DNA of 64,000 nucleotides from a virus, in IMG/VR virus record IMGVR_UViG_3300042934_000426, positions 40,951 to 104,950 of that record. One strand, given 5' to 3'. The notes beneath the pieces are model-generated. The model saw nothing but the letters and a program-made list of their open reading frames with translations, did not search any database and was not told the DNA's origin. Position numbers and translations under genes: made by a program. Below are positions 13,512 to 63,885 of this stretch, one piece after another. Within the stretch, counting starts at the first letter, position 1. Every line of letters starts with the position of its first letter.

Positions 13512-13534
13512 ATGTGACACGCTCCTTTTGTTTT

Positions 13535-29153: not shown

Positions 29154-29169
29154 GTAGGTCACCCCTCTT

Positions 29170-30312
29170 TTACACTTCGTAAATAATCGAATTGTTAACG
29201 GCAATCGTGGTCGCTCCGACCGTTATGTTATCCATTACGTACGACGTGCCGTTGTTGACGGACAAATTCACTTTAATATCATAAACCCCGTTGACGAGCT
29301 TGATAAGAGCGGAAAGTTCGGAATGGACGATGGTTTGTCCTAAACGAAGACGATAGAAGAAGGACTGAATTTCTTTTTCGACCATTTTCTTTACGTCACT
29401 TTCGATTGCCCACTCTGCAACCGTCAATTTCAGTTTAATTTTAACATAGGTCACATTGGCTGGGTAGATGTTCACTTTCGTCCCCGCAATTTTATAGCCG
29501 TATACCCGTGACCCATTGACGTCGGTATATCCCCGAAGGATTTTCTGTATTTCGGTTTGAAGGTTAGCCGAAGGTGCTCCTACCCCATTCCATACATACA
29601 AGTCTACCTGACCTAGCTTCGTTACCAGGTCTTCGGTCGCACTTGCTTGTAAAACTTGTTCCGTTACAAGACCATTGCTGTCCACAAGCTTCGCTGTCTT
29701 CGCTCCGTATTCAATAGCGGGTAGTGTTCCCCTAGAGTTCGAATCCATGTAATCCTGAAAACGTACTTTTTGGTCTTCGGGTGTTTCTTCGTCCTTCCCG
29801 TTAATGAAGGCTCTTGGATTGGTCACCGTATCAAGACCGAAGGGCTTTTGAACGAAGGTGTTAATCGTTCCCGCTTCGACGTTGCTAACCGCTCCCGCTT
29901 CGTTGCATATCACTAACACTTCGACGGACGTATACCCGATGGGTAACACAGCGTCCACAGCGGTATGGAAAATGATAGGCGGTCGGTATTCATTCGGCTC
30001 TGCGATAACTTCGGTTCCCGCTGGGATAAAAATCTCTTCGGTCGAAGGCTCTTCACGTCCAAAGATAACGGTGTCGGAAGACGGAACCGCTTGTGCCTTA
30101 TCGAAGCCGATAACCGCATACAGGTTCGTTTCGATTAATTTCTTCGCGGAACGGAAGGCACGGTCATACAATCCTTCAATCGCTACAGCGAAGGCTTCGA
30201 AAAGGGTACGTATAACTGACCCTCTTCGGAAGTCTGTAAGTTTCGGGCTCACCGCCCGTGCCCATTTCATCATTTTGTCTAGCGTTTGTTCTTTACTCTG
30301 ACGTTCGAACAT
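29170..30312 (-). CDS. Baseplate J-like wedge protein
   Basis: 380 aa. The N-terminal FRRGSVIRTLFEAFAVAIEG and the middle FIPAGTEVIAEPN, GAVSNVEAGTIN and NPRAFINGKDEETPEDQKVR are the conserved signatures of P2 gpJ / PBSX XkdT / T4 gp6 family proteins, which form the baseplate wedge ring. The start codon touches the stop of the upstream gp25-like gene. Length is normal for the family. Confidence 0.93.
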   Translation of the reverse strand: MFERQSKEQTLDKMMKWARAVSPKLTDFRRGSVIRTLFEAFAVAIEGLYDRAFRSAKKLIETNLYAVIGFDKAQAVPSSDTVIFGREEPSTEEIFIPAGTEVIAEPNEYRPPIIFHTAVDAVLPIGYTSVEVLVICNEAGAVSNVEAGTINTFVQKPFGLDTVTNPRAFINGKDEETPEDQKVRFQDYMDSNSRGTLPAIEYGAKTAKLVDSNGLVTEQVLQASATEDLVTKLGQVDLYVWNGVGAPSANLQTEIQKILRGYTDVNGSRVYGYKIAGTKVNIYPANVTYVKIKLKLTVAEWAIESDVKKMVEKEIQSFFYRLRLGQTIVHSELSALIKLVNGVYDIKVNLSVNNGTSYVMDNITVGATTIAVNNSIIYEV

Positions 30313-44329: not shown

Positions 44330-45811
44330 TTAACGGTCTACTGCTTTCACTGTTCCGAAGCTAGTTGCCCCATAAGAAGGGTTGAATAGCTCACGGTTTG
44401 AGTTGATTCCTAGTTTACCGATGTTCTTGATAACTACGCAACGACGTGGGTTGTACACTTGAACCATACCGTAAAGTAGAATCATGAAACGCTCTGAAGC
44501 GGAAATTCTAGCAAGTGGAAGCTTCATTAATGGAGCTAATTGCTTGAATGTTAATACGTTTTCAGAATCGTTATCGATTAATACGGCTGTGTCCGTTCCA
44601 GGAATATCGAAGTTACGGTCAGCGATTGTTTGCGTTGCACCCGCCTTAGCGTCAGCCACTTCGAAGGCGAATAATGCTTTCGTAGGGTCTGAAGTTACGC
44701 CACGGTACACTTTGTAAGACTTCGCTACAGGGTCGCTTGTTACGCGATTGATAAGGATGTCTACACGTTGTCCAGCCGTTACCGCTACTGAGCCTAATGC
44801 CACAGGAGCAGATTCCCCAGCACTATTCTTCGCTGATACGAAGTAGAAGTATGTGCTAGCTGTATGCTTCGCTGTAGTGTCCGCTACCGCTACTAATTGA
44901 GAAGCTGGGAATGTTGGAATTCCTGGTGCTCCTTTTTGAGATTGAGCTTTCGGTGCGCCTTGTGGCTTCAAGAAAATGTTATTCACGAAGTTAATATTCG
45001 CTGTATTAGCTGAATATCCACGAACAGGTGCCCCTAATGTCATGCCGTCTGTCGAAGGCATAGCAATACGTTGACGAGCATATAATAACTTCGAGAAGTC
45101 CTTATGTGCTTGGTTTGTAATGTGAAGGTCTAAGTTCGCATTACCATAGTTGTCCGCTACGATGGTCGCTACGTCTTCCAACGTGTTTTCATCTAACGTT
45201 TCGCCACGCATATCAATAATATGTTGGGTTTCGTAAGGCTTGCCCTTAACGAAGTCTGTGATTTGTTTGATTACACCGTCAAACGCTAATGGGTCTACGC
45301 TTGAATCAGCGAAGTAAAGCATGCGCTCTAATTGCTGAAGCAACCATAATGTACCATTTTGAGATTCACGGGCAACAATGTCACCCACTGTGTTACGCAC
45401 TAGCGTAGCTGGGTGTGTTACTACTCTCGTAGTCCCTAGGAATTTCACCATTTGGGATTGACGAATGTAGTTGCTGTCCTCTTCGTTCGGTAAACCGCCT
45501 TCCATGAAGAAAGGAGAAGAATCGCCACCGAAGCTGTCTAATACGTTGAATTCTTCAACAGTATTGAACGCTTGTTTTTTGCCGATTGTCTTCCAAAACT
45601 TAATGTGTTGCTCGCCAGCCGTTACAATCTTTAAAGTCCCCTCTAAAGATTGTGGACGAAGAGCGGACATATCATTGTATGCACCGTTGCCATAAGCTTC
45701 TCCGTCTTGCCCTGTACCTAGGGCTTTGTTTAATTCTTCAAGGTTCTGCCAGTTATCGACACCAAAGCCTTGAACGTCTTCTTGACCACCATTTGGTAAA
45801 AAGTTACTCAT
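44330..45811 (-). CDS. Major capsid protein with beta-sandwich insertion
   Basis: 493 aa behind AAGGGGGTATACACGC. The N-terminal 50 residues are G/N/E-rich and probably removed. The body (LKIVTAGEQHIKFWKTIGKK, FMEGGLPNEEDSNYIRQSQM, ATLVRNTVGDIVARESQNGT) fits capsid proteins of large Firmicute myophages with an HK97-type fold. Residues about 300-410 (STYFYFVSAKNSAGESAPVA, KSYKVYRGVTSDPTKALFAF) read like an inserted FN3/Ig-like domain, likely exposed on the capsid surface. It follows the protease/scaffold gene. Confidence 0.85.
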   Translation of the reverse strand: MSNFLPNGGQEDVQGFGVDNWQNLEELNKALGTGQDGEAYGNGAYNDMSALRPQSLEGTLKIVTAGEQHIKFWKTIGKKQAFNTVEEFNVLDSFGGDSSPFFMEGGLPNEEDSNYIRQSQMVKFLGTTRVVTHPATLVRNTVGDIVARESQNGTLWLLQQLERMLYFADSSVDPLAFDGVIKQITDFVKGKPYETQHIIDMRGETLDENTLEDVATIVADNYGNANLDLHITNQAHKDFSKLLYARQRIAMPSTDGMTLGAPVRGYSANTANINFVNNIFLKPQGAPKAQSQKGAPGIPTFPASQLVAVADTTAKHTASTYFYFVSAKNSAGESAPVALGSVAVTAGQRVDILINRVTSDPVAKSYKVYRGVTSDPTKALFAFEVADAKAGATQTIADRNFDIPGTDTAVLIDNDSENVLTFKQLAPLMKLPLARISASERFMILLYGMVQVYNPRRCVVIKNIGKLGINSNRELFNPSYGATSFGTVKAVDR

Positions 45812-48416: not shown

Positions 48417-48429
48417 AAAATTTTTTAAG

Positions 48430-48458
48430 AAAAAGAGGGCTAAAAACCCTCTTTTTCA
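48430..48458. terminator. Strong terminator after the 2302-aa gene
   Basis: AAAAAGAGGG / CCCTCTTTTT perfect stem with a 7-base A-rich loop, T run on either strand. It lies 20 bases after the stop and just before cassette B. Confidence 0.9.
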
Positions 48459-48477: not shown

Positions 48478-51400
48478 CTAAAGCATTATAACCAGTTTTA
48501 GGGACTTCGCTACCGCTTTCCCTTGGGTTGTTCCACTTCCGACTTTTAAATCACTTGTCTTCGGTGTTTTCACCTTCGGAAGTGTTTGGTTTTGCGCCCC
48601 TTTCGGCTTGGCACCCGCTTTACGCTTGGCGCTTCGTGAAAACCCTCTTCCTGTCATAGCACGGGCTGAAGCGGTATCACTCAACTTGTCTTGCTTCTCT
48701 AGTTGCTTCGTTGAATTCACCACATTCGAAATATTCTTCATTTTCGTATCCTGTGCGTCAAACATGAAGTCTTCGATGGTTCCAGGCATATGAAGCGATT
48801 CGACACGGGTTGTGTTGGCTCTGCCTACTGCCTTATGGGACTTCCAGCTATCCGAACGTCTGACACGGGCGGTAAACTGTGCCATTTTCTGTGGGTTCCA
48901 GTCTTGGTCGAAGTGTATCATCATGTGAGCGTTTCCGAAGTCAACGCCTTCTTTACCCGCTGGTGATACCGTCGTTGCCCATAGGTGACCTTGGTTGTTC
49001 ACGTAGTCCGCTCCGCTATCAGCCTTCGAACCACGGAAGCCTACCTTCGTATCTTCACGGTCTGTCGCTTCCCCTGTGAACTGTCCATGACCGAACTTGT
49101 CGCCTACCTTCGAAGCCCACTTATGCAATTCAGGATGTCCCGTTTCAGGGTGTGCCAGGTCTTTTAGTACTCCGTCCACAATGTCCGTTCCGAAAGTAGT
49201 GTAAGAAGACTTCACCACTAGCTTCGGCATGATTTCAGGCTTACCAGCCTTACGTCTTTCGTTGTTCTCATGAGCTACTTCATCCAGGTACTTCGATACA
49301 CGTTCCTTCAGGTAATCAGCCTTCGGGTTGTTGTGGTGAAGTGGAGCTAGAAGCTTTGGTGACCCGTCTTCGTTTTTCAGGTAACCGCCTTTGCCATCGC
49401 TTTCATAATAACGCTTGTGACCGTCCCCGTCTACTTCGAAAGGAATCGGCTCGCTCTTATCCTTTTTGTCCCCGCTTGTAGTCTGCTGTACTCCTGTGGC
49501 TTCGCTATCGAAGGCATTGGAACCAGGGACATACATTTTGCTCGCTAGTGGGGCGTTTAGGTACTTCTGAAGCTTCTGCATAGCGGTTAAATAGTTTTGG
49601 CTCTTCTTCCCGCTGGCATTATCGAAGCCCGTTGTAGAAGCTTGCTGAAGTTCCTGAAGCTTCGACTTCGGAAGGTACTTTTCCTGAAGCTGGCTGTACT
49701 CGTCGTACATTTTTTGCATGCTCGGCTTCATATTCGTCGGCTTGAACGTACGAACTTCGTACTCTTCCCCGCTCTTCGCTTTGGCTGTGACTGTGCCTTC
49801 GTCGAAGTCGGTGATACTATGCTTCGTTCCATAGTAGTCGTTGGTCGCATGGTCACGGCTTCGGTCTACTAAGTTACCTACGAAGTCATTTTGTGGGTTC
49901 GGATTGTCAGGCGTTCCACTCGCTCCTGATAAGTGTGGGAAGTGGATTTTCGAACCGTCGTTAAACTTTACATCTTCCCCGCCACGGAATTGAACGAAGT
50001 TGGCTAGAATGTCCCCTAGCTTACCCGCCTTCGCTGGGTTGACCCCGACGATTTTCCCGTTTCGGTCTTTAATCATATACTCATTGGTGAATTCCTGACG
50101 TGAGCCTAGCTCATGTTTCCCGCCTGAAATGGTGTCAATTAAGCTGTGAATCTCACGGGCGTCATTTTCCATTGGCGTTCCTGATAAGCCCCATACGTTT
50201 TTGAACTTGTCGGTCGCTTCGGCTAGAGACTTCCCGCGCTTCCCGCCCTGGTTCTTAAAGGCGTGTACTTCGTCAATCGTAATGTTATCGTACAATCCCG
50301 AAGCTGTTAACGCGTCTTTGTTTCTCATAAAGGTGTCATAGCTCATGATATGGAAGTCATGGTCAGAATCGTGGTGAGCGTCTAGGTTGTTTAGCAAGTC
50401 CTTCGTATGAACGACTTCGTGCTCTTTACCCGCTTGACCCCACAGTTTCTTACCGTCTTCACCCTTCGTATGACCGCTGAAAGACGAAGACCCCCCGATA
50501 AACGCACCCTTCATTGAAGTGTGGTCGGTGATTTCCTTACCCCAATCGGACATAATCCCCTTCGGAGCCACAATGAGCGTTTTCTTCGGCTTTTGTCCCT
50601 TAGATAATTGCTTCGCCTTATAATGGGCGTGAGCGACAACCCCTAGAATGGTCTTACCTGTTCCCATTCCGTGACCCGCAATACCACGCTTACGCTCGAC
50701 TAGGTGAGCTACCCCTTGTAGCTGTGTGCCGTACAATCCTTGCTTTTCATCCATAAGGAAGCTCTTCGGATTGAATTGAGCCTTGTAGTGGTCATCGAAG
50801 CTTCCGCGCTTCGTATTGACTTGTGACGGCTGGTAGTTTTCCTGGTAATATTTACGTCCTTCGGGACTGTCAATATCACGGAATACTCGGTCTTTACTTC
50901 GGAAGTAGTCGGCTAGGTGCTCCTGTGCGTCATGTGCCATCGAGATACCGCTACCTTCACGGGAAAGTATGTCCCGAAGTTCTTCGAACTTATTGGTGGA
51001 CACTTTCGCTATACCGTCCTTACTTACTGCAACCCCTTCGCTCGCTACTACGTCCCGAAGGTGTTCAGGAACGTGCAAGTCTAGGTCTTTGGTGTAACTC
51101 GACTTGAATTGCTTCAATAACCCTTTGCCCGCCTTCGAGCGTCCTAAGACCTTCTCTAAGCGTTTCATTTGGCTATCGTTTAATTCCAGGTCTTTCTTCA
51201 GGTTGCCTTCTTTATCGAAGGCGGTGGTGTTGATTTTGGCTTTCTTTAGCGCTTCGGCAAATAAGGTTTTCGCCTTTTCTGCTCTAGCTGTATCACGTTT
51301 GCCTTCCGAAGCTGGTTTGAATAGGTCATTCGTGTTCATACGGTGTGTACCCGTTTGACCCACTTTCAATACGGCATTACCGCTATTGGATAAGGTACGC

Positions 51401-54400
51401 CCTTTTTCCTTCGCTGGTTTCAGCTCATTCTTATTGAATAGCCCGACAAGCTGACCGTCGCTGTTGATAACCTGGAAAGCTCCGTTTTCCGTTTCCTGAG
51501 TAATCTTACCCTTTTTCCATGTGTTTCCGTCTTGGTACATGACCGCATTGCCTTGTTTCATTTTGACGTCATTCACATTGGTATGTTTTCGGTCGACTAA
51601 TTTCCCATTTTTGAATAAAGCTTTGATAGGTTCGCCTGTCGAAGGGTCTACTGCTCCCTTCGGAATATCGCGACTATCAATGTATCGATATCCCTTATAG
51701 GTTCCTGAAGCCACTACAGGAGCGCCTTTCCCATCGTATAGTAGCTCAATATGGTGCCCCAATGCGTCCCCAATGTGGACGTCACTTCCCGCATGAGCCG
51801 TTACCCAGGCACGATTACCGACGGCATTTTTCATGACTTCGTGAAGGTCTTCAGCCGTATTCACGTCTTTATGTTGCTTCAGAAGTCTAGCCATGATAGG
51901 GTCAGTGATTTTCCCGCTTCCATCCACTTCGATAACGTTTTGGGTGCCGTCTTCGTTTTCTTGGGCAAAGGTCTTACGTCCCGTCTTCGCGTCGTGGTCA
52001 ACTAGCTTGAAGTTCTTGTGCGTCATTTCGTCTTGCATACCTAGTCTTGTTTGGCTTCGGAAGCTCTTGGCTTCGTCTTCGGATAGCTCCTTGAACATCG
52101 GGCTTGTGCCGTCTTTGTTAGCGTCCGCTAGTAACTTTTCCGAAGAGTTGATATTCGTCCCCAGGTACTTGTTTAGCTTTGACCAGCTATGCGCGATATC
52201 GTCAGTTGCAAAGTGCTCTCCTGTTTCAGGGTCGAAGGCTTCGGAAATGTATGATGTATAGTTATTTTTCTTGTCGTCCATACGGTGAGCGACTTGAACA
52301 ACCATACTTTTCCCTGTCGTTGGGTTACCAATTTGGTAGTGCCCTTCAGGTATCATACGCTTCGTCATTTCTTCTCCCGCACGGGTCATTTCCTTTTGTC
52401 CGATTAGGCTAGCCAGCTCGTCCGTTGATAGGTCTTTCTTTGCCATTTCCTGTATGGTTGAACTCATACCATCTTGGCTTCGAAGTGCCATAGAGTTAGC
52501 GGTTTTCGAGATAGCTTCGAAGTCGGCTTTGTGCTCCTTAAAGAAGTTTTCAGCGTCCTTTTTGGCTGGCTTCGTAATGCCGTTTTCTTCTAGGTATTGC
52601 TTGTATGCTTCCACTTTGTCCTGAAGGAAATTGGCGACGTCTTCCGTTAGGATTTTATGCCCTACGAAGCGTTTTCGCTCTTCGTCACCCATTGAATCGT
52701 AGGCTTCTTTTTCTTCGTCGGATAAAGTGTGATACATGCCGATACCTTTATGGCTATGTTCCTTCGCTTTTTGCTTAATTCCGCTTACGTGGTCTTTCAG
52801 GTTCTCTAAGTCCTCTTCGAAGGCTTGAATTCCCATATCTAAGCGGTCTTTGTCTTCGTCCCCGTGGTTGAATTCCAGCTCGCCTGTTTCGTGGTTGATT
52901 TTCGCCCCGAATTTGTTCATGTGCATATCCTTCGCACGGGCGGTCTTCTTCGAATCGTCTTTAATCTTTGCCCACTCTTCATGAGCTTTGGCTTCCTTGT
53001 TCTTACGGTGCTCGGCTAGTTCTTCCTCTTCATGGTGGAATTCTAGTCCTTCTTCCTGGTCAGTGATACCATGGTTTTTCGCTTGTTCCTCTCGGTGGCT
53101 AGAGTTTTTAGAATCGTACTTGATTTCCCCATCACCTGTGATAAGGATTTTTTTACCGCCCCAGCTAATCCACGCTGACCCAGGATTCTTGACGAGAAGT
53201 TCTTCAGACCAGGTAAGTGCCCCTTGTTTCTGCTTTACCCGTTCCTGTTGCGTCTTCGCCATTCCCTGAATCTTAGCCTTGTTCTTTTTTGCGTATTCGC
53301 TTGCCTTTGCATTGGTGGAGCTATTCGAAGCCCCTTTATGGGCAAACATCGACTTTTGAAGCTCTTCGAATTCACCGAACGCCTTACGAAGCTCTTCGGA
53401 AGCTGGTAATGTGTGCTCGACGATTCGTGCACTTACCTGTCCTTCGTCATTAACGATATAGGCTCCGACGTACTCAGTAGGTGATAGAGATTTCTTAATA
53501 TCGAATAACGTTTCACCTGTTGCTACTCTTGTAAACTTCTGACGAAGGATACTCGCGTCAAGACCCCAGCTATTAAGGGACTTAATCAGGTTCAATTCGT
53601 ACCATGACTTCAAAATCATATTGAAGACGAAGCTCTTTAGCATAGCGAGCTGTTGAATGGCTGGATGATTGTTCGCATGAGCCTGAGCGATTTTCCCCAT
53701 AGCGCTTCGAACCCACTTGTCTACCCATTTTTCTCCATAGCTTGTTCCATGCACAGCATTATAGCGGTCAGCGATTTCCTGATTCGTTAAGTTCGCTTGG
53801 TTACGCTTTTCGGAAGGCTGGGAGAACTTATACGTCATCAGTTTAATTTCATCGTCACTTAATCCCATATCAGCCATAGCTTTCGGAAGTGTGCCTTCTA
53901 GTTCCTTCTGACGCTCTTTACGCTCATACACTTCTTCAGGGGAACGCCCTTCGTCCTGGATATTGCTTGTAATCGTTACGCTACCTTCTTCCGAAGCACG
54001 GTTCTTGTCGGCTGATACCGTCTTCTGCTGGCTTGCATAGGCACGAAGCTGACGAACACGTTCGGCTGGGTCGGTTTCTTGTTTGTTAGTCGCCACCCAC
54101 TCGCTTTTCTTATCATCCCAATAAGGAGCCTTGACGATTGGCGCTTCCTTGAATTCCTTCGAATTCTTCATAAGATGTGCGCCTAGTTCTTCGTCCGAAG
54201 GCGTACGTCCTAGCTCATGAGATAGCTGAGTGTGGGCGTTGTTCATATCCACATTTGCCATACGAACGGCATGCGGTAATGGGATATCGTTTAAGAAGTC
54301 ATACACGTCGTTTTTCAGCTTATCTTTGATACGTTGAGCTACATGTGCCCCCATATCGGCTGAAGGGTGCTGAGTGCCCGCCATGACGTTGTGGAGGGTT

Positions 54401-55386
54401 TCGAACATCGTCGCACGCGCTGACTGAAGCATATCACCATAGAAGCCTGTTTCCTGGTTGATGACGTTCTCGCTTCGGGTCGCTTTGTTCCCGATTCGGT
54501 TGATTTGCGAAGCTAGGTTCATACCTAGGGCACGACCACGCTTTAATACTAGGTGACGAGCAAACTTGTCATTCGCGTCTGTAATTTCTCCCGCTAACTT
54601 CTTAATGTCTTCGGCATTACGCTTTTCAGGTGGTAAGCTCATAAGCTTTTGTACCTTTGATGATTCCCACATTTCCGTAATGGAAGCATTATCCTTCGTA
54701 GCCGTTGCTTCGTTGAAATCCTGGACTTCTTGGTTCGCTTTATGGTTATCTTCGGTTTTGGTTAGGCGTTTAACAGGGTCAAGCTCTACGCGCTTAATCG
54801 CTGGTGCTTCTAAGTCACGCTTCTTTTTCGCTTGTCGAATCGCTTTGTTTTCAGCCGTCGCCTTCTTTTTCATATCCTTGACCTTTGCGGTTTGCGCTTT
54901 CTTCCGCTCTTTGGTTGTCTTGTTGACTTCCTTCATCACCTGTTTAACGGTAGGCTTTTTTGCTTCCGAAGCTGTTTTCGCCTTCTTTGCTGGTGCTTTC
55001 GTTGTCGGGTCAGCGATTACCTTTGCTTTACCTGTACCGTTTGCCTTCGTAGCGGTTTTGGTGGCTTTAGTTTTTTCTACCTTTGCCTTCGTTGCCTTCT
55101 TTTTCTTTTTGTCCGCTTTTTGGGCGTCCATGACCTTCTTATGGTCATTCGCATGAAGAACACTGTCCTTCGCTACTTTTGTGAGTTTTCCTTCGTCCGT
55201 CCGTACTTTGTAATGTCCGTCCCCGACTTCCTGGACTACCCCCGTTTTCCCTGTCTTCGTGACTACTCGGCTACCGCCTTTGACGGTGCTGAATTTACCG
55301 AACTTGTCCCGTGGGTGCATTTCTTCCCGCCAGCTTTTTTCAAGCTGAGAAGACAAGTCGATAAAAAGGAATGGTCTTGTTGCCAT
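48478..55386 (-). CDS. Giant polyvalent protein: sigma-70-like block and SNF2 helicase
   Basis: 2302 aa behind GAAGGGGGTAGACCAA. Residues 35-75 form an SH3-like segment; 85-200 is a K/A/T-rich linker. Residues about 262-575 align with sigma-70 regions 2-4: ITDANDKFARHLVLKRGRAL and FYGDMLQSARATMFETLHNV (region 2), IPLPHAVRMANVDMNN plus LSHELGRTPSDEELGAHL (region 3), SPEEVYERKERQKELEGTLP and LTNQEIADRYNAVHG...VDKWVRSAMGKIAQ (region 4). Residues about 600-1300 are helical with a second SH3-like part. Residues about 1545-2210 are a complete SNF2 motor: Walker A GHGMGTGKT (about 1568), IDEVHAFKNQ (about 1703), GLSGTPMEND, QFTARVRRSD (about 2172). Lying in the head-gene cluster, it is probably packaged and injected. 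Confidence 0.85.
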   Translation of the reverse strand: MATRPFLFIDLSSQLEKSWREEMHPRDKFGKFSTVKGGSRVVTKTGKTGVVQEVGDGHYKVRTDEGKLTKVAKDSVLHANDHKKVMDAQKADKKKKKATKAKVEKTKATKTATKANGTGKAKVIADPTTKAPAKKAKTASEAKKPTVKQVMKEVNKTTKERKKAQTAKVKDMKKKATAENKAIRQAKKKRDLEAPAIKRVELDPVKRLTKTEDNHKANQEVQDFNEATATKDNASITEMWESSKVQKLMSLPPEKRNAEDIKKLAGEITDANDKFARHLVLKRGRALGMNLASQINRIGNKATRSENVINQETGFYGDMLQSARATMFETLHNVMAGTQHPSADMGAHVAQRIKDKLKNDVYDFLNDIPLPHAVRMANVDMNNAHTQLSHELGRTPSDEELGAHLMKNSKEFKEAPIVKAPYWDDKKSEWVATNKQETDPAERVRQLRAYASQQKTVSADKNRASEEGSVTITSNIQDEGRSPEEVYERKERQKELEGTLPKAMADMGLSDDEIKLMTYKFSQPSEKRNQANLTNQEIADRYNAVHGTSYGEKWVDKWVRSAMGKIAQAHANNHPAIQQLAMLKSFVFNMILKSWYELNLIKSLNSWGLDASILRQKFTRVATGETLFDIKKSLSPTEYVGAYIVNDEGQVSARIVEHTLPASEELRKAFGEFEELQKSMFAHKGASNSSTNAKASEYAKKNKAKIQGMAKTQQERVKQKQGALTWSEELLVKNPGSAWISWGGKKILITGDGEIKYDSKNSSHREEQAKNHGITDQEEGLEFHHEEEELAEHRKNKEAKAHEEWAKIKDDSKKTARAKDMHMNKFGAKINHETGELEFNHGDEDKDRLDMGIQAFEEDLENLKDHVSGIKQKAKEHSHKGIGMYHTLSDEEKEAYDSMGDEERKRFVGHKILTEDVANFLQDKVEAYKQYLEENGITKPAKKDAENFFKEHKADFEAISKTANSMALRSQDGMSSTIQEMAKKDLSTDELASLIGQKEMTRAGEEMTKRMIPEGHYQIGNPTTGKSMVVQVAHRMDDKKNNYTSYISEAFDPETGEHFATDDIAHSWSKLNKYLGTNINSSEKLLADANKDGTSPMFKELSEDEAKSFRSQTRLGMQDEMTHKNFKLVDHDAKTGRKTFAQENEDGTQNVIEVDGSGKITDPIMARLLKQHKDVNTAEDLHEVMKNAVGNRAWVTAHAGSDVHIGDALGHHIELLYDGKGAPVVASGTYKGYRYIDSRDIPKGAVDPSTGEPIKALFKNGKLVDRKHTNVNDVKMKQGNAVMYQDGNTWKKGKITQETENGAFQVINSDGQLVGLFNKNELKPAKEKGRTLSNSGNAVLKVGQTGTHRMNTNDLFKPASEGKRDTARAEKAKTLFAEALKKAKINTTAFDKEGNLKKDLELNDSQMKRLEKVLGRSKAGKGLLKQFKSSYTKDLDLHVPEHLRDVVASEGVAVSKDGIAKVSTNKFEELRDILSREGSGISMAHDAQEHLADYFRSKDRVFRDIDSPEGRKYYQENYQPSQVNTKRGSFDDHYKAQFNPKSFLMDEKQGLYGTQLQGVAHLVERKRGIAGHGMGTGKTILGVVAHAHYKAKQLSKGQKPKKTLIVAPKGIMSDWGKEITDHTSMKGAFIGGSSSFSGHTKGEDGKKLWGQAGKEHEVVHTKDLLNNLDAHHDSDHDFHIMSYDTFMRNKDALTASGLYDNITIDEVHAFKNQGGKRGKSLAEATDKFKNVWGLSGTPMENDAREIHSLIDTISGGKHELGSRQEFTNEYMIKDRNGKIVGVNPAKAGKLGDILANFVQFRGGEDVKFNDGSKIHFPHLSGASGTPDNPNPQNDFVGNLVDRSRDHATNDYYGTKHSITDFDEGTVTAKAKSGEEYEVRTFKPTNMKPSMQKMYDEYSQLQEKYLPKSKLQELQQASTTGFDNASGKKSQNYLTAMQKLQKYLNAPLASKMYVPGSNAFDSEATGVQQTTSGDKKDKSEPIPFEVDGDGHKRYYESDGKGGYLKNEDGSPKLLAPLHHNNPKADYLKERVSKYLDEVAHENNERRKAGKPEIMPKLVVKSSYTTFGTDIVDGVLKDLAHPETGHPELHKWASKVGDKFGHGQFTGEATDREDTKVGFRGSKADSGADYVNNQGHLWATTVSPAGKEGVDFGNAHMMIHFDQDWNPQKMAQFTARVRRSDSWKSHKAVGRANTTRVESLHMPGTIEDFMFDAQDTKMKNISNVVNSTKQLEKQDKLSDTASARAMTGRGFSRSAKRKAGAKPKGAQNQTLPKVKTPKTSDLKVGSGTTQGKAVAKSLKLVIML

Positions 55387-55406
55387 TTGGTCTACCCCCT
55401 TCGTTA

Positions 55407-55428
55407 AATAGAAAAGGCTTCTTCCGAA
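55407..55428 (-). terminator. Possible weak terminator
   Basis: Minus strand GGCTTC-GGAA-GAAGCC hairpin followed by TTTTCTATTT, between the stop of the 1109-aa gene and the start of the 2302-aa gene. Short stem; may only attenuate. Confidence 0.5.
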
Positions 55429-55467
55429 GCCCCTTCGTTGTCCTTCTTATTTTAGCAAACATTGGCA

Positions 55468-58400
55468 CTACTTGGCTATCGGAATTACGAGCATACCTTC
55501 AGAAGAAGTTTTTCCCTTCACGACGATTTCACCGTCCACGGCTCTTATGTGGTCAGGCTTCGGAAGAGCGATAACATACGCCTGGCTTTCATTGTACAGG
55601 TCATAGTTACTCCTAGCGTAACCTTGTGCCTGGCTGTATAGGGTCGAGAAGCACGTATAAGAATTGTTCTTGTCTGCGTCGTTTCCTTTACCCTTCGATT
55701 CAACGAAGCCGTTCTTTCGGATAAAGTCTAGCTCCTTTTGACCAATGCCACGGTAGATATAGTTTTCGTCGTCAGCGAATACCTCTTTGCCCAGGGCTTC
55801 CCTTCCGATTCGTCGAAGTTCGTCTTCGCTGAGTAACCTTCCGTGCTTCTTTTCATGGTGCTGGTGATGGTGCGTATGGGCTGGGTAGTGAAATCCCTTC
55901 CATACCTCCTGATACGCTTCGATTGCCCGCTGGCGTTCGATTTCATTCGGTGTATTCATGACCACACACGGAACATGGGTAAAGTCACACAGGTGACTAG
56001 CTTCGTAGCGGTGTTGACCGTCGTGTATATCATAATTGAAGCCTATCACAATCGGTTCTAGATTTTCACCCGCTACCATACGTTCGACGTTCTCCTGTAC
56101 CTTATCCCAATTCGTTGCCTTTTCCGTTTGGTAAACCGTTTTTAATCGGTTGAGTGGGATATAAATGACTTCCGAAGGATTCGGTACGTTATAAGCGCTT
56201 CGGCTACCCCTGAATTGGGCGTTTAGGTTGGTACTGTGTATACTACCTAATAACTCTTCTAGGCTCACCCGACGCATGTTTCCAGGTACGTCGAAGCTCT
56301 TCAGCAATTCCATTTCCAGGGCTTTCTTCAGGGCTTTGTTCTTCGAAATGTAGCTCACTAGGGCTTCCATGTGCTTGTGCATGTGGGCGCGTTCTTTTCC
56401 TAGTGGGAAAGGTGCTCCTAGGGCTTTGACCGCCCCTTCTTCTGTTCCATGCACCAGGTAGTTGTTATAGCGTTTGTCCTTCTTCAATTTATCCTGTACG
56501 TAGCTTTCGAAGACCCTGGCGAAGACTTCGGCTGGTTGTGACCAATAGTGTGCCCCGTTCTGTTGCTTGCCTGGCTGGGTCATTTCCATACGGCTCATGT
56601 ACTCACTTTTGCCTGTTTGGATTTCAATATGACCTCTGTACGGCTCACCGCTGTACTTCCCGCCATTTTGCTTTAGTTGAAGCTCTTTTGCCAGGTAGTG
56701 CGGTAGCTCGTTTAGTTCCCGTTTCCGCTTTTGTTCATACTTCTTAATCTCTTTTTCCCTAGCTGTGTCATTGCTATAGTAGGAGCTCGTCTTCACCCGA
56801 CTAATAGCGGTGTCATACTGGTTGTTAATCTTACTCGACCAATGCTGGTACACTTCTTCAGGCTTCATGCCACTACCGACTTGTCTACGCATTTCAGGGT
56901 AGTAGCGTCCGATACTCTTCGCTTCGGAATCGAGTAGGAGTTGGACTGTCCCGCCTGGCTCTCCTGGTGTCGGCTTCTCAATCGCTTCCATGACGTTGTT
57001 AAAAAGCTCTTTTAGCTTCGGGTCATGGTTGCCCATGCTTCCTTCCGAAGCGTGACCCAGGGATTCTTGTCCCCCATTGCTGTACTGATACATAATGTTA
57101 TCTAAGGCATGACCCCATTCGTGAGCTAGTGAACCCGCTCCCCCGTACTTCGTCATATTAATAACCTTACGGTCAGGTTCATAGTGAGCTAGTGAACCAC
57201 CCTTCCCTCTCGCTCCGAAGGCAATGGCTAGTCGTCCGTTAAGAGAAATATCCTTCGGGTCGATTCCCAGCACGTCGGATAGGTCGTTAAAGGCTTCGGC
57301 ACAGCGCTGAAGGTGGTACTTCCCGCTAGAATCATTGACCCAATTTCCGAACTCGACGCCACGCACCCCGAAGTCTTTCATCAGGTCTTCAGGCTTCATG
57401 ACCTTCGTTGGTTTCCCGCCTGTACGAAGGTGCTCGGCTTCGGCTTTGCGCTCCCATACCTTATTTTCTTCGCCTTTTTTCTTCGGTGCCTTTTTAGCTT
57501 GCGGGGTCAGGTACTTGTCCCATCCTTCTTTTGTGTTCTTGTTCACGGTCTGAATCGTTCGGTCACGGCTGTCCCAATCGGTAAAGAAGTTATTGAATTT
57601 CTCCCCCAGGGCTTCGAAGTTGAACGCTTGCTTATCCTTCATACCCTGAATAAAGCGGTCTTCGTATTCCTTTTTGAGCTTTTTGGCTTGCTCGATTTCT
57701 TCGGGCTTCAGTGGGAAACGCTCATACTGTGAAATACCGTTTGCGCGCTTCGTTTGATATTCAATCGTTCGTGCCCAGCTTGAAAGGTTCTTTGTGCTGG
57801 TATTGCGTCCGTATTCGGACAGTTCCCGAATGGCGTTACGCATATTTTCCCAGGTCTTAATCCCCGCTATTTGTCGATGAAACTTCGTCATAGCCACTAA
57901 GTAGGCTTTACGGGTTTCAGGTGTGGACGGGTCAGGCTTCGGAGCCATTCTATCGAAGAGCAATTTCTTCATGATAGCTGTTGGAAGCTCCGTCCCGTTG
58001 GCATGCTCGTCTTCGAAGCTGAATCCTGGTAGTAGGTTCGCCTTCGTGACCATCTTTTCCGCAATCGCCCCGCTCATTTTTTCTAACTCGTCTAGGCTCG
58101 TTGCGGTTGGCTTCGCCTTGAATCCAGCGATAAATTCGTCCTTACGTGCTCCCCCTACCTTGTCGCCTACGTCATACGCTAGTTCTCGATTCTTTTGGGC
58201 TTCGTGACGTGTATCTTTGGCGTTCTTTTTACCAGCGGTTTTGGGTTTGGTAGCTCCACCTTCGGAAGTGGCTTTGGGTTTTCCTGAAACAGGCTTTCCA
58301 GCTCCGCTTGACTTAGTTTCGGTGGTTGCTCCTTTGCTAGTACTTTTTGGTTTAGTTGTTTTAGTAGCACGTTTACCCGCTCCTTCTGTTTTCGTAGGTT

Positions 58401-58797
58401 TCGAAGTGGTTTTCTTAGGTGCTTTTGTGGTCTTCGGTTCTTTTACTTCCGAAGCTTGCTTGCTAGTCTTTTTTGGCTCTTTTCCTTTGCTTGCTCCTGA
58501 AGCTTTTTTAGGTTCGGCTTTGCCTTTACTTTTACCAGCATTTTTCTTCTCTCCCTTTTTGGGCTTCGAAGTTTTATCGTGATTTTCTTGGTGCTCTTTT
58601 AACTGTGCCTTCGTTGCCTTTTTTGCTCCCGAAGCTCCTGGGATAGCCCCCGCTAGCACTTTCCCATCTTTAATGTAAATATGGTGACCTTTAACGGTTT
58701 TCCACTCACCGCCAGGCGGTAGCTCTTTATGAACCGCCTTGGCTTGTGTCCGTGTAATCGCTTTGATTAGGTCAAATTCTCCTGGTTTGAGTATCAT
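55468..58797 (-). CDS. Polyvalent protein: LPD1 zincin, ParB-like and ART-like domains
   Basis: 1109 aa; ATG 58797 overlaps the previous stop (ATGA), with GAGGGGGTTTACACG upstream. Residues 8-55 share a motif with the 473-aa neighbour (ITRTQAKAVHKELPPGGEW, KGHHIYIKDGKVLAGAIPG). Residues 60-215 are a K/T/S-rich linker. Residues about 470-600 match LPD1 of phage polyvalent proteins: FGVRGVEFGNWV, LAIAFGARGKGGSLAHYEPD and SLAHEWGHALDN with the zinc HExxH. Residues about 880-960 resemble a ParB/Srx fold (IPLNRLKTVYQTE, VIGFNYDIHDGQHRYEA). The end (YIYRGIGQKELDFIRKNGFV, YTCFSTLYSQAQGYARS) resembles an ADP-ribosyltransferase. Likely virion cargo acting on host targets at infection. Confidence 0.8.
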   Translation of the reverse strand: MILKPGEFDLIKAITRTQAKAVHKELPPGGEWKTVKGHHIYIKDGKVLAGAIPGASGAKKATKAQLKEHQENHDKTSKPKKGEKKNAGKSKGKAEPKKASGASKGKEPKKTSKQASEVKEPKTTKAPKKTTSKPTKTEGAGKRATKTTKPKSTSKGATTETKSSGAGKPVSGKPKATSEGGATKPKTAGKKNAKDTRHEAQKNRELAYDVGDKVGGARKDEFIAGFKAKPTATSLDELEKMSGAIAEKMVTKANLLPGFSFEDEHANGTELPTAIMKKLLFDRMAPKPDPSTPETRKAYLVAMTKFHRQIAGIKTWENMRNAIRELSEYGRNTSTKNLSSWARTIEYQTKRANGISQYERFPLKPEEIEQAKKLKKEYEDRFIQGMKDKQAFNFEALGEKFNNFFTDWDSRDRTIQTVNKNTKEGWDKYLTPQAKKAPKKKGEENKVWERKAEAEHLRTGGKPTKVMKPEDLMKDFGVRGVEFGNWVNDSSGKYHLQRCAEAFNDLSDVLGIDPKDISLNGRLAIAFGARGKGGSLAHYEPDRKVINMTKYGGAGSLAHEWGHALDNIMYQYSNGGQESLGHASEGSMGNHDPKLKELFNNVMEAIEKPTPGEPGGTVQLLLDSEAKSIGRYYPEMRRQVGSGMKPEEVYQHWSSKINNQYDTAISRVKTSSYYSNDTAREKEIKKYEQKRKRELNELPHYLAKELQLKQNGGKYSGEPYRGHIEIQTGKSEYMSRMEMTQPGKQQNGAHYWSQPAEVFARVFESYVQDKLKKDKRYNNYLVHGTEEGAVKALGAPFPLGKERAHMHKHMEALVSYISKNKALKKALEMELLKSFDVPGNMRRVSLEELLGSIHSTNLNAQFRGSRSAYNVPNPSEVIYIPLNRLKTVYQTEKATNWDKVQENVERMVAGENLEPIVIGFNYDIHDGQHRYEASHLCDFTHVPCVVMNTPNEIERQRAIEAYQEVWKGFHYPAHTHHHQHHEKKHGRLLSEDELRRIGREALGKEVFADDENYIYRGIGQKELDFIRKNGFVESKGKGNDADKNNSYTCFSTLYSQAQGYARSNYDLYNESQAYVIALPKPDHIRAVDGEIVVKGKTSSEGMLVIPIAK

Positions 58798-60215
58798 CGT
58801 GTAAACCCCCTCATGAACGCCTGAACGTCCCCTAGTGACTTTTCTAGAGCGTCCCTGTCGTCAATCGCTCCTACGTATAAGTGTAAGCCTTCGTCGTCGA
58901 TATGGTGATGGAGTAGGGTGTGACCTACATTTGACTTCCGAAGTGCTTTAATCGCTTTTAAAAGTAACGCCTTTAACAGGTCTAGCTTGCCTTGTTCGTT
59001 GTAATCAATACCCTTACCGTGGTCTTTCACCTGTATAATGCTAGGGTCATAGACACCTATTTGCCAGCCTTCTTCCTTGAATTCGTCGAGCTTATCGACG
59101 ACGGCTTTGTACCCATTCTTCTTGGCGAATATTTCGTAAGGAGATACCTTCATAGGCTTCACGTCACGTCCCCATAGCTTCTTTAGTTCTTCTGCTTGTT
59201 CGTTGAAGGTGCTATAGTTTTGCTCAGGTGACCAACTACTTGTGTCGATACCTTTCAAATGCTTTAGAACGAAGCCCATCATCTTTTCCATTGTGCCTTC
59301 GTTGTAGTGGTCATTAAAGTCCTCAAGGATATCTTGTAGTTCCTTTGGTCGCCCGTTTGTGCAATCCAAAAGGTGCTTCTTCGGTACAAGTGCCTTTACG
59401 ACCGCTGGGGCTTTCTTTTCGGTGAAGAAATCCACAATTTCCTTCGTGTCATTTCCTTTGCTCCGTCCGTCCGTGTACTTACTTGGTACAGGTAGTCCCT
59501 TTGCTTGTCGGTCAGCTATCCACTTTTGACGGTCGTCGTGGTCTTTGTGGTCGAAGGCTGGACTTTTGAAATAGGCACAGTTTCCGAAGTCATCCCATGA
59601 CCCCTGTAGTTTATGGATATAGTCGAAACCGTTCGCTAAGATATTGTCCAGTCGGGCTAGCTTCGTGCCGTGGAACATTTCGACGGTTTCTTCGGAAGTT
59701 TGCTCTTCCTTTGGCTTTGCTGGTTTGGCTTGCCTTTTTAGTTTTGTATCAATAACTAGCTTCGGTTCTTTCTTCGAAGGTGCTTTTGCTCCTGTCTCCG
59801 TTGCTTTCGGTTTGGCGGTGGTGCTAGGTTTACTTCCACTAGCGGGTTTAGGTTTTGGGCTACTTGATACCCCTGAAACAGTCTTTTTAGGCTTTTTAGA
59901 AATCTCACTCTTTTCAGCTCCTTTGGTTTTCGAAGCTGGTGTTTTCGCTTTGGTGTTTTTCTTCGCTTCTTTATCGATGTGTGCCTGGTGTGCTTTTAGG
60001 TGTTCCTTCGTCGCCTTCTTAGGCTTCGTCACCCCAGGAATACTACCCGCTAACACTTTGCCGTCCTTTATGTAGACGTGGTGACCTTTAATCGTACGCC
60101 ACTCGCCCCCGTCGGGTAGGTCTTTATGGACGCTTTTGGCTTGGCTTCGGGTAATAGATTTGAATAAATCCAGGTCGTCATTGACTACCTGGATTCCGTG
60201 TAGGTTTACTAGCAT
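58794..60215 (-). CDS. Polyvalent protein with ADP-ribosyltransferase-like domain
   Basis: 473 aa behind GGGGGTTCAACC. Residues 16-62 (LFKSITRSQAKSVHKDLPDG, RTIKGHHVYIKDGKVLAGS) are shared with the 1109-aa protein and may be a head-targeting or protease-cleaved signal. A disordered K/P/S linker (65-175) follows. Residues about 178-390 look like an ART fold: VEMFHGTKLARLDNILANGF, then CAYFKSPAFDHKD and later GWQIGVYDPSIIQV. The C-terminal 65 residues are a separate helical-beta cap (SNVGHTLLHHHIDDEGLHLY). Between the MuF-like gene and the protease, hence probably carried in the head. Confidence 0.7.
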   Translation of the reverse strand: MLVNLHGIQVVNDDLDLFKSITRSQAKSVHKDLPDGGEWRTIKGHHVYIKDGKVLAGSIPGVTKPKKATKEHLKAHQAHIDKEAKKNTKAKTPASKTKGAEKSEISKKPKKTVSGVSSSPKPKPASGSKPSTTAKPKATETGAKAPSKKEPKLVIDTKLKRQAKPAKPKEEQTSEETVEMFHGTKLARLDNILANGFDYIHKLQGSWDDFGNCAYFKSPAFDHKDHDDRQKWIADRQAKGLPVPSKYTDGRSKGNDTKEIVDFFTEKKAPAVVKALVPKKHLLDCTNGRPKELQDILEDFNDHYNEGTMEKMMGFVLKHLKGIDTSSWSPEQNYSTFNEQAEELKKLWGRDVKPMKVSPYEIFAKKNGYKAVVDKLDEFKEEGWQIGVYDPSIIQVKDHGKGIDYNEQGKLDLLKALLLKAIKALRKSNVGHTLLHHHIDDEGLHLYVGAIDDRDALEKSLGDVQAFMRGFTR

Positions 60216-60772: not shown

Positions 60773-62083
60773 CTATTGGTCTATCATTTTACGAATCTTT
60801 TCTAGTTGGGCTTCGATATTCGGGTCAGGGGCTAGCCCACGCTTTGCCCGCTCTTCCGCTATCAGCTCTGCGGTTGTTTTCCTCTTAAATGTACCATCTT
60901 TATCCACATTGTAGAAGCGGGAAATTCGATGGGGTCTGCAACTACAGTTTGGATGGATAGGAAAACAGGCTCGCCAGGCTGTCGAAGGTCTGCCCATATT
61001 GGTTTTTCCCGCCCATACGTATTTCATATCGTTGTCGTAGCTCTCTTCGGAAGGCGGTACTTTTAGGACGATGAACTCTCTCCCTATTACTAGACTTCGG
61101 CAATGCTTACACGCATTGACTGACCCGATACCTGTAACCCGTTCGCCTTCTTCTAATCCCGATAGGTAGGCGTCATTGGTCGCCATAGCTAGTTCAGTCA
61201 TGGCAACCCTTCGCCAATCTCGGTTATGGTCACCGAAGCGGTCGAAGAGCTCTTGTGCTAGTTTTTGGGCTGTCCATCGTTCTTTCTTCGCTTGTATCAC
61301 TAGCTGGCGAACCCCCGCTATATGCTTTTCACTAATTTCGGTTAGTTTATCCCCAGCGTGGAGGCTGGCGTGTCTGACGGCTTCGGTTTCTTGTGCTGTA
61401 AGCGGGAGCACTTCGACTTTACGACCTTTGCGCTCTTCTTTTTGCTTTTCCCGAAGCGTTAAGACCACGCCTTCTTTCCTTGCTGGTTCGATAGACTGAG
61501 GCACACGGTCTAGGTAGCCTGATAGCACTTCGAAGTTTTCCCGCTCTGCCTGGTTGTGTATCTTTCCGATAAATCCAGCCCGAACCATGAATTCTTCGGC
61601 TTTCTTGGCATAGTCGGGAATATCCTTCCGAAGGAATTCATCAAGCTTTTTCACTTGTGCTTGGGTCATGGCTTTTCCGTCATTGACCCATTTCATAAAG
61701 CTCTCCCGCTTCTTACGCCCCGCTTGAATGAGGGCACTCATGTTATTACGTCCCGAATCGGTTGCCTTTAGAAGGTCGAAGCCTTCGAAGCTCTTTTCGC
61801 TCGTAAATGGGCTGTCTGTTTCGGCTAGTGGTAAGCCTAGTAATGCCATTACATGAGTGAATCGATTGAGCTCTTCTTCGGCTAGGTCGGTGAAGAGCTG
61901 GTCTTCTGCCCAGGATAGAAGCGGGTCGGGATTCTTTTCCCATAGCTTGCTTTCGCTTGACTTCACAGGGAGCCTTTTGGTCTTCGGAAGCTTCTCAGCT
62001 TCGAAGAGGACATTCAGGATTTCATTTCGGTCTTTATCGTCTAGGTCTAGTAGACCTGAAGGTAGGTTTAATACTCGTCCCAT
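60773..62083 (-). CDS. Minor head protein (MuF / SPP1 gp7-like)
   Basis: 436 aa; start overlaps the end of the portal gene by 16 bases. C-terminal MuF signature: RRVAMTELAMATNDAYLSGL, then GSVNACKHCRSLVIGREF and FPIHPNCSCRPHR, with the Cys/His cluster typical of Phage_Mu_F proteins. The N-terminal half is helical. MuF proteins bind portal, travel with the DNA in some phages and are needed for head formation or genome delivery. Confidence 0.9.
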   Translation of the reverse strand: MGRVLNLPSGLLDLDDKDRNEILNVLFEAEKLPKTKRLPVKSSESKLWEKNPDPLLSWAEDQLFTDLAEEELNRFTHVMALLGLPLAETDSPFTSEKSFEGFDLLKATDSGRNNMSALIQAGRKKRESFMKWVNDGKAMTQAQVKKLDEFLRKDIPDYAKKAEEFMVRAGFIGKIHNQAERENFEVLSGYLDRVPQSIEPARKEGVVLTLREKQKEERKGRKVEVLPLTAQETEAVRHASLHAGDKLTEISEKHIAGVRQLVIQAKKERWTAQKLAQELFDRFGDHNRDWRRVAMTELAMATNDAYLSGLEEGERVTGIGSVNACKHCRSLVIGREFIVLKVPPSEESYDNDMKYVWAGKTNMGRPSTAWRACFPIHPNCSCRPHRISRFYNVDKDGTFKRKTTAELIAEERAKRGLAPDPNIEAQLEKIRKMIDQ

Positions 62084-63885
62084 GTGACCTCAATCCCCTT
62101 GCTTCGGAAGTCGTCTTCAATGGACTTCTTAATCTTGTCCTTCTTTTCCTTTTGGGCTTTCTGCTCGGCTGTCATTTTGGCTAGTTTTTCCTGGTGTCCA
62201 TGGTCGAGCTTCTTCACTTCCAGGTTTTGCTTATGGGTGTTTACAAGTTTGTTGCGGTCGTGTAGCTGGTCGACGCCTTTTTGTTGCATAGCGTGTTCAT
62301 GCTGTTTATCCATGATTTCAAGCTGGCGTTTGTGCGCGTCTTCTTCGCCTTCTTTGCCTCTTTCGTGTTCCACGTCGCCCTGGGCTTGTGCTTGCTGTTG
62401 CTGGTTTTCTTGCTGTTCTGCATTTATATCAGCCATGAATACTTGAATGAGCTGGGCGTTGGCTGGTGCATTAGCCCACTTCGGAAGTTCCCCGCCATTC
62501 TCCTTCTTGATTTCTTCGATATCCACGTCGTTTTCTTTCCACAGCATAGCCACCGTTTTCACACCCGCTTCGAGCTGGGTTTTCTGACGTTCTAGCTTTT
62601 TGTCTTCGTCCTCTTCGTCTACCCCTATCCATTCGAAGACGTATTCGTCGTCAATCAGGTCGACGACTTCGCTGTTAAATGTATCTGATAGGAAGTTCAT
62701 GAGCGGGATAAAGCCTTTATCCTTTGACCCTTCCATTTTGGCTTCGGTGTTATCTGAAGCGCTCATAGAATTACTTGACGTCCAACTCTTGAATCCGACT
62801 TCGTTCGGGTCAATTTGGTAGACCGCACAGGCTATGTTGAAGAGGAATTCTAGGAATTCGTTGAATTCCATATCTCGGTTGCTGTTTTTGAATGGGGTAA
62901 ACTTAAACCCTTGCCCCTCTTCAAGTGCCATAACGGGTACTGCCCATTTGCCAGGTGCTCCCGTGGTTAGGCTCTTCCAATGACGCTTGAACCCTTCTAG
63001 GTGCTTATCCTGGTATTTCCCTACGACTTCTAACACCCCTTGTGGTAAGTGGCTATGGCTGAAGTAGCTCGTATTATAGCGTACCCCATTCATAATGCCT
63101 GTGACGATTTCAATCAGGGTTTCCAGCTCGCTCATTCCGAAGTCCACCATATCTAGGTCGGTGCGTGGGTTTCGAATCGCATAGGCTAATTCGTCTTCGG
63201 TGAATTCCGCTACCGTACGACCGTTGACTTTTTGGACGTAGGCGATATTGTCGCCTCCCGCTTTGACCCCGCCTTTGGTTTCAGGGATATACACAGGCAC
63301 TTCGTAGTCTAGTTCTCCTGTCGGGTTGTTTAGTACTAGCTCAATCGTTGAGCCGTCTACTGCCCACAATTCAGCGACTTCGTTTTTGACGCTGGCTACC
63401 TTCTCGAAGGCTAGTACGTCTAGTGTGAGGGAATCATAAACAGTCTTCCGAAGGAAGGTGTTAAAATTGTCCTTCCGAACTTTGTTCTTGACCGCTCCTG
63501 TTTTGAGGAAAAATTCTTCGATTTCCATAGCCCGCTTCTTTTGGGCGTCGGTCATTTTGGCTTCGCGGTCTTTTAATCGAATACGGAAGCCCATATCCCC
63601 GTCGAAGCGCGGTCTTCGAGCGTAACGTGCCACCTGGTTGAGGCGGGTGTTAATGATAGCGCTCACGGCTGGTACTGTTGCCATTCTTCGAAGGGTTGTG
63701 TAAGGAATAGCCGTCGGCTTCGAACGAACGCCCAGGAAGCCTCCCATGTTATTAAATGGGTCAATAATGGCACTCTTCGGCTCTTGTGCTTTTTGCATAT
63801 CGTCTTTCATGGCTTTATAAAGCGCTTCGGATTCCCCAGGAAGCGGGGCTCTGTTGGCGTTCCATATGTGTAAGATTTCGCTCAT
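62068..63885 (-). CDS. Portal protein
   Basis: 605 aa from ATG 63885 behind AAGGGGTGAGAAC. FGMSELETLIEIVTGIMNGV, NTSYFSHSHLPQGVLEVVGK and FLFNIACAVYQIDPNEVGFK are the clear signatures of SPP1/HK97-type portals (the helix motif NxxxFxxGxxPxGVLE). The C terminus is Q/K-rich and helical (EQQENQQQQAQAQGDVE, EKKDKIKKSIEDDFRS). It forms the dodecameric ring for packaging and head-tail joining. Confidence 0.95.
   Translation of the reverse strand: MSEILHIWNANRAPLPGESEALYKAMKDDMQKAQEPKSAIIDPFNNMGGFLGVRSKPTAIPYTTLRRMATVPAVSAIINTRLNQVARYARRPRFDGDMGFRIRLKDREAKMTDAQKKRAMEIEEFFLKTGAVKNKVRKDNFNTFLRKTVYDSLTLDVLAFEKVASVKNEVAELWAVDGSTIELVLNNPTGELDYEVPVYIPETKGGVKAGGDNIAYVQKVNGRTVAEFTEDELAYAIRNPRTDLDMVDFGMSELETLIEIVTGIMNGVRYNTSYFSHSHLPQGVLEVVGKYQDKHLEGFKRHWKSLTTGAPGKWAVPVMALEEGQGFKFTPFKNSNRDMEFNEFLEFLFNIACAVYQIDPNEVGFKSWTSSNSMSASDNTEAKMEGSKDKGFIPLMNFLSDTFNSEVVDLIDDEYVFEWIGVDEEDEDKKLERQKTQLEAGVKTVAMLWKENDVDIEEIKKENGGELPKWANAPANAQLIQVFMADINAEQQENQQQQAQAQGDVEHERGKEGEEDAHKRQLEIMDKQHEHAMQQKGVDQLHDRNKLVNTHKQNLEVKKLDHGHQEKLAKMTAEQKAQKEKKDKIKKSIEDDFRSKGIEVTWDEY

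Follow-up and report, generated by a model that had tools for sequence, protein, structure and literature searches.

The 64,000-bp window that we analysed (positions 40951-104950 of the 104,950-bp virus record IMGVR_UViG_3300042934_000426) contains, within its head gene cluster, a cassette of three consecutive genes that we call A, B and C. We propose, with a probability of roughly 0.7, that their products are packaged polyproteins, which the head protease would split, within the prohead, into effectors that are injected one by one. With less assurance, we lean towards the view that a sigma-70 factor is delivered as one of these effectors: it would be packaged within the polyprotein encoded by gene C, released by the capsid protease, injected, and would redirect the host RNA polymerase at entry; as far as the literature found shows, it would be the first virion-delivered sigma factor. 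In the open-licence literature that was covered, no paper contained phrases for packaged or injected sigma factors, which is weak evidence. The proposal is based on the constant position of the cassette, on a cleavage motif enriched and conserved at leaders and domain junctions, on two relatives that diverge at such a site, and on the sigma-70 homology.

58794..60215, minus strand: gene A, an open reading frame (ORF) of 473 amino acids
55468..58797, minus strand: gene B, an ORF of 1109 amino acids
48478..55386, minus strand: gene C, an ORF of 2302 amino acids

A first-pass annotation had described three giant polyvalent proteins of these sizes, filling about 18% of the window between a MuF-like head gene and the capsid protease. 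The ORFs are indeed intact and the cassette spans 11,738 bp (18.3% of the window), with an AGGGGGT-type ribosome-binding site at all three starts and a 4-bp overlap between A and B. Its location is also correct, with small ORFs in between: two separate the MuF-like gene from gene A, and one small gene separates gene C from the protease/scaffold gene on the downstream side. B and C are giant; A is not, and has no LPD domain. The portal, MuF-like, protease/scaffold and capsid protein genes lie on the same strand as A, B and C (here and below, a slash within a motif marks the predicted cut).

62068..63885, minus strand: portal protein, upstream of the cassette, with candidate site ALYK/AM (motif at residue 22)
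60773..62083, minus strand: MuF-like head protein, upstream border of the cassette
48429..48457, no strand assigned: strong terminator-like stem-loop just 3' of the gene C stop codon
45841..47454, minus strand: fused head maturation protease and scaffold (phrog_1028), the predicted cutting enzyme
44330..45811, minus strand: major capsid protein (phrog_752), with predicted maturation site ELNK/ALG (motif at residue 27)

A motif, [LIVMF]xK[SA][LIVMFWY] with the cut after K, was spotted by eye in these sequences and counted afterwards, together with a strict variant limited to KS; a Protein Data Bank (PDB) chain and the relatives serve as independent checks. We observed it 17 times in the protease/scaffold protein against 0.4 expected (KS-only: 17 against 0.28). 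The cassette has 17 copies where 3.5 would be expected, a count reached in 0 of 500 shuffles (KS-only: 10 against 1.36). In the 103 other ORFs, the KS-only motif is at chance (10 versus 9.5). The full motif also marks the N-terminus of the capsid protein, in all relatives that were examined as well as in SPO1, DAC16, MA9V-3 and Kayvirus MSA6. The mature capsid chain of phage 812 (PDB 9row, 9rox and 9roz) starts right after DVVK (DVVK/SF) and lacks the first 24 residues of the 463-residue precursor. The window protease is homologous to the SPO1 protease (33%, E=1e-25), and His68 and Ser134 are invariant among the homologous proteases. Since the proteases are homologous, also in the family to which phage 812 belongs, and the phage 812 capsid chain starts at the motif, we infer that the window protease cuts there as well.

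The N-terminal leaders of A, B and C, with predicted lengths of 12-19 residues, end at a head-protease-type site, as judged by the motif only. The layout of the three proteins, in residues, and the two parts of gene C that concern us most are the following.

Gene A: leader 1-19 ending DLFK/SIT, M1 tag, linker 62-165, PARP/ART-like domain ~173-400, candidate cut sites 413-457
Gene B, N-terminal half: leader 1-12 (DLIK/AIT), M1 tag, linker, zincin HEWGH at 559
Gene B, C-terminal half: LPD1 745-819, cut sites 823/831, ParB-like domain 866-968, VWK/GF variant at 965, ART-like domain ~1014-1107
Gene C, N-terminal part: leader 1-17 (QLEK/SW), HPRD module, linker, sigma-70 ~228-580
Gene C, remainder: cut-site cluster 582-678, conserved middle of unknown function, SNF2 ATPase ~1550-2220
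53647..54705, minus strand: sigma-70-like part of gene C (residues 228-580), from profile, Pfam and AlphaFold/Foldseek
53353..53643, minus strand: gene C cut-site cluster (residues 582-678), motifs at 582, 591, 600, 630, 666 and 676

Across orthologues, interdomain motifs are positioned between sigma and SNF2, between LPD1 and ParB, and between ParB and the ART-like domain. In the gene C family, copies of the motif are found in the leader and the cluster 582-678 and seldom elsewhere, and this cluster, which lies between the sigma part and the rest of the protein, is kept in orthologues. Gene C of the relative L008 has six junction sites with different flanking letters; because these were missed, the rate ratio of 38 given by the junction finder is an underestimate. 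When K/G was allowed in the B family, the motif was found between LPD1 and ParB in 10 of 10 members and between ParB and the next domain in 9 of 10; at the latter junction the tenth (L029) keeps LWKS and not the hydrophobic residue after it. Separately, the A-position protein of L029 (L029:2862-4409) ends in KKSIALYIDLRKERR, a sequence similar to the leader with which gene C begins (LYIDLxK).

The sigma-like domain reported at first pass is a genuine sigma-70 homologue. With a profile of C 228-580 built on seven orthologues, 35 of the 36 PDB matches were sigma-70 proteins (best E 1.8e-4), with regions 2.4-3 aligned in order and region 3.2 weakly; Sigma70_r3 matches all seven orthologue members, at best with 3e-7. 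The AlphaFold model of this part has a predicted local distance difference test score of 74, and all 44 Foldseek matches at E<=1e-3 are sigma chains, aligned over 312-375 columns. The global template modelling scores are low (0.19-0.29), probably because the relative orientation of the domains is not fixed in the model. Collinear regions 2-4 and a sigma fold, which we took to define a sigma-70 factor, were both found, and C ~228-580 is therefore a divergent but nearly full member of this family. In addition, the record contains a conventional sigma factor gene outside the window (record 28720-30117), also present in two relatives and possibly used for later genes.

Searches of IMG/VR with gene C, its sigma part and the capsid protein yielded the relatives. 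Wherever the contig of a relative covers the slot, the cassette lies between MuF and protease. Their comparison revealed domain shuffling, as in polyvalent proteins, with module exchange in L027, L029/L031, L035 and L039/L043. The M1 tag (K[DE]LPPGGxWxTxxGHHVYIxDGK), which opens A and B, lies inside the protein in L027, L031 and L039/L043, immediately behind a motif or near one. L029 and L031 are 98.7-98.8% identical in DNA on both sides, and the identity stops exactly at the ELWKS codons; there, L031 has an additional M1 tag and a second zincin, then a diverged ART-like domain. In L035 an A-type ART-like domain replaces the B-type one, and L039 begins with a RadC unit.

Neither gene C nor its sigma part has a match in 50,697 cultured-phage records, and cultured phages likewise gave none for gene A or for the M1 tag region of gene B; for B, domain-level matches to other phages exist. 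Gene C has no match in the bacterial or archaeal genomes searched, so that no host or prophage was identified. A 1459-residue gene of MA9V-3 in the same slot was not counted as a cassette: it looks by eye like a tail fibre or beta-helix protein, lacks BLAST similarity and has one motif. Among the relatives, L008 has a group I intron (L008:14734-15612; Rfam RF00028, E 1e-16) that breaks gene C at the Walker A region of its SNF2 part and whose 213-residue ORF looks LAGLIDADG-like by eye. One lineage has extra genes beside C (L027:6210-7304, L018:4366-8133), of which one resembles by eye a GH25-type lysozyme with cell-wall-binding repeats, which suggests a Gram-positive host, and the others are of unknown function.

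The other domains were recovered with varying strength. The long Lys-rich linkers seen at first pass are low-complexity segments (A 62-165, B 52-205, C 84-225) with 27-28% Lys versus 12-15% overall. SNF2 in C (Pfam, 1.9e-21), LPD1 in B (6.9e-18) and the ParB-like domain in B (PHROGs, 1.5e-28) are solid matches; against the PDB, the SNF2 part gives ISWI/Rad54-like matches, RapA not being among them. The zincin motif HEWGH at B 559 lies within a strong NF041907 match (6e-36), which is below that family's curated cut-off. B (zincin, LPD1, ParB-like) and C (sigma, SNF2) each combine at least two effector or conflict domains, as polyvalent proteins do. The ART-like assignments are weak, with a PARP match at E=0.009 for A and no useful match in PDB or Pfam for the C-terminal domain of B; ART activities of the two are plausible at most. 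No methylase domain was matched in A, B or C. Elsewhere in the window, a second, separate SNF2-type helicase gene (597 amino acids, 11727-13520) lies far from the cassette. Pfam also identified a contractile-sheath protein, a family A DNA polymerase, an MCM-like protein and a class II ribonucleotide reductase.

Such a cassette might work as follows. A, B and C would be made together with the head genes, and their short leaders would draw them into the prohead core. There, the capsid maturation protease would cut them after Lys at [LIVMF]xK/[SA]-hydrophobic sites, as for the capsid protein and scaffold, stripping the leaders and freeing the individual effectors: an ART-like protein from A; zincin-LPD1, the ParB-like domain and the ART-like domain from B; a sigma-70-like fragment (~18-584, 63.5 kDa) and an SNF2 ATPase fragment (~679-2302, ~181 kDa) from C. 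These would be ejected along with the DNA. On entry, host RNA polymerase would be bound by the sigma factor and guided to the early promoters of the phage ahead of any phage gene expression, and the ART-like, zincin, ParB-like and SNF2 parts may modify host targets or protect the incoming DNA. The system would be modular, each effector being preceded by a protease site and, in most cases, by a short tag. The infection-starting cargo set imagined at first pass thus gains computational support from the leader and interdomain sites, the module exchange and the sigma-70 homology, packaging and injection being what we infer from them.

Several observations weigh against this scheme. The virus is uncultivated and known from metagenomes alone, the motif is short, and its looser form is mildly over-represented in the other ORFs (31 versus 20). 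The ParB-ART junction of the window B reads VWKGF, not KS, four B relatives have K/G instead of K/S or K/A between LPD1 and ParB, and the L029 and L031 copies of C have no full motif match in the leader. The ART assignments in A and B are both weak. For most of C 690-1400 no fold could be recognised: when this region was folded and structure-searched, no significant match was obtained, only an SH3/Tudor-like patch. Finally, the WW pair of sigma-A region 2.3-2.4 aligns to non-aromatic residues in C. This tryptophan pair helps melt promoters; the aromatics are a functional feature on which homology does not depend. Promoter melting may therefore differ or be lost, and we lowered our claim of ordinary promoter opening accordingly.

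The packaged proteins might instead be split by the zincin metallopeptidase of B, which has HEWGH; self-processing of this kind was proposed for polyvalent proteins (Iyer et al. 2017, PMC5512222) and is possible for B. For the cassette as a whole we find it improbable, since the sites fit the capsid protein/scaffold motif, which is also found in SPO1 and Kayvirus, without such a cassette in their head cluster, and since C, in which no zincin was detected, has the same sites. It seems unlikely to a similar degree that the effectors are made late and act unpackaged in the infected cell, the head-gene neighbourhood reflecting shared regulation. SNF2 and sigma proteins are indeed common among cytoplasmic phage proteins and this phage has a separate conventional sigma gene, but the capsid-protease-type leaders and interdomain sites and the constant slot inside the head cluster speak against it. 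A third reading, in which the motif acts as a scaffold-core docking or packaging signal instead of a cleavage site and the proteins are packaged whole, is very improbable. In its favour, the motif is repeated in the scaffold, and T4 internal proteins are targeted by short sequences (PMC5694885); against it, the first residue of the mature capsid chain in phage 812 is the one right after the motif K.

Processed cargo of the kind we favour has parallels in known systems. Like the polyvalent proteins of phages and conjugative elements (PMC5512222), the cassette encodes large multidomain proteins whose metallopeptidase, LPD, ParB-like, RadC, SNF2 and possibly ART domains are exchanged among relatives, with virion genes adjoining; it differs by its conserved capsid-protease-type interdomain sites and its sigma-70 domain, the word sigma being absent from that paper. 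T4 and SPN3US internal proteins are trimmed by the head protease (PMC5694885, PMC10052503), and removal of a propeptide, as in T4 internal proteins and Alt and in phiKZ/SPN3US ejection proteins, is predicted here from the genes; T4 targeting propeptides have 10-20 residues (PMC5694885), similar to the 12-19 predicted for A, B and C. Here, however, the cut would fall after LxK, not at T4-type or AXE sites, and predicted internal cuts would part several effectors. As with the virion RNA polymerases of phiKZ and N4, transcription machinery would be carried in for early genes, in this case a sigma factor redirecting host polymerase and not a polymerase. The parallel with P1 DarB, drawn at first pass, extends to an SNF2-type ATPase in a head-associated protein and stops at the methylase, which was not found here; SNF2 here shares its polypeptide with a sigma factor and with a conserved region of unknown function. 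The Herelleviridae head cluster (SPO1, Kayvirus) has a homologous capsid protein and protease and the same motif, but in SPO1 and Kayvirus MSA6 there is no such cassette between portal and protease.

Polyvalent proteins and processed ejection proteins of T4/phiKZ type were already known; what would be new here is a sigma factor as phage cargo and the predicted cuts between effectors. The motif offers a rule by which head cargo among phage proteins, and the points at which it would be cut, can be read from sequence, in a clade whose capsid protein and protease are homologous to those of the well-studied SPO1/Twort-like phages. The finding suggests a third way to start early transcription, sigma injection, beside a packaged polymerase (N4, phiKZ) and host modification (T4 Alt), and the motif may serve as a guide to cargo in further phages whose proteases are homologous.
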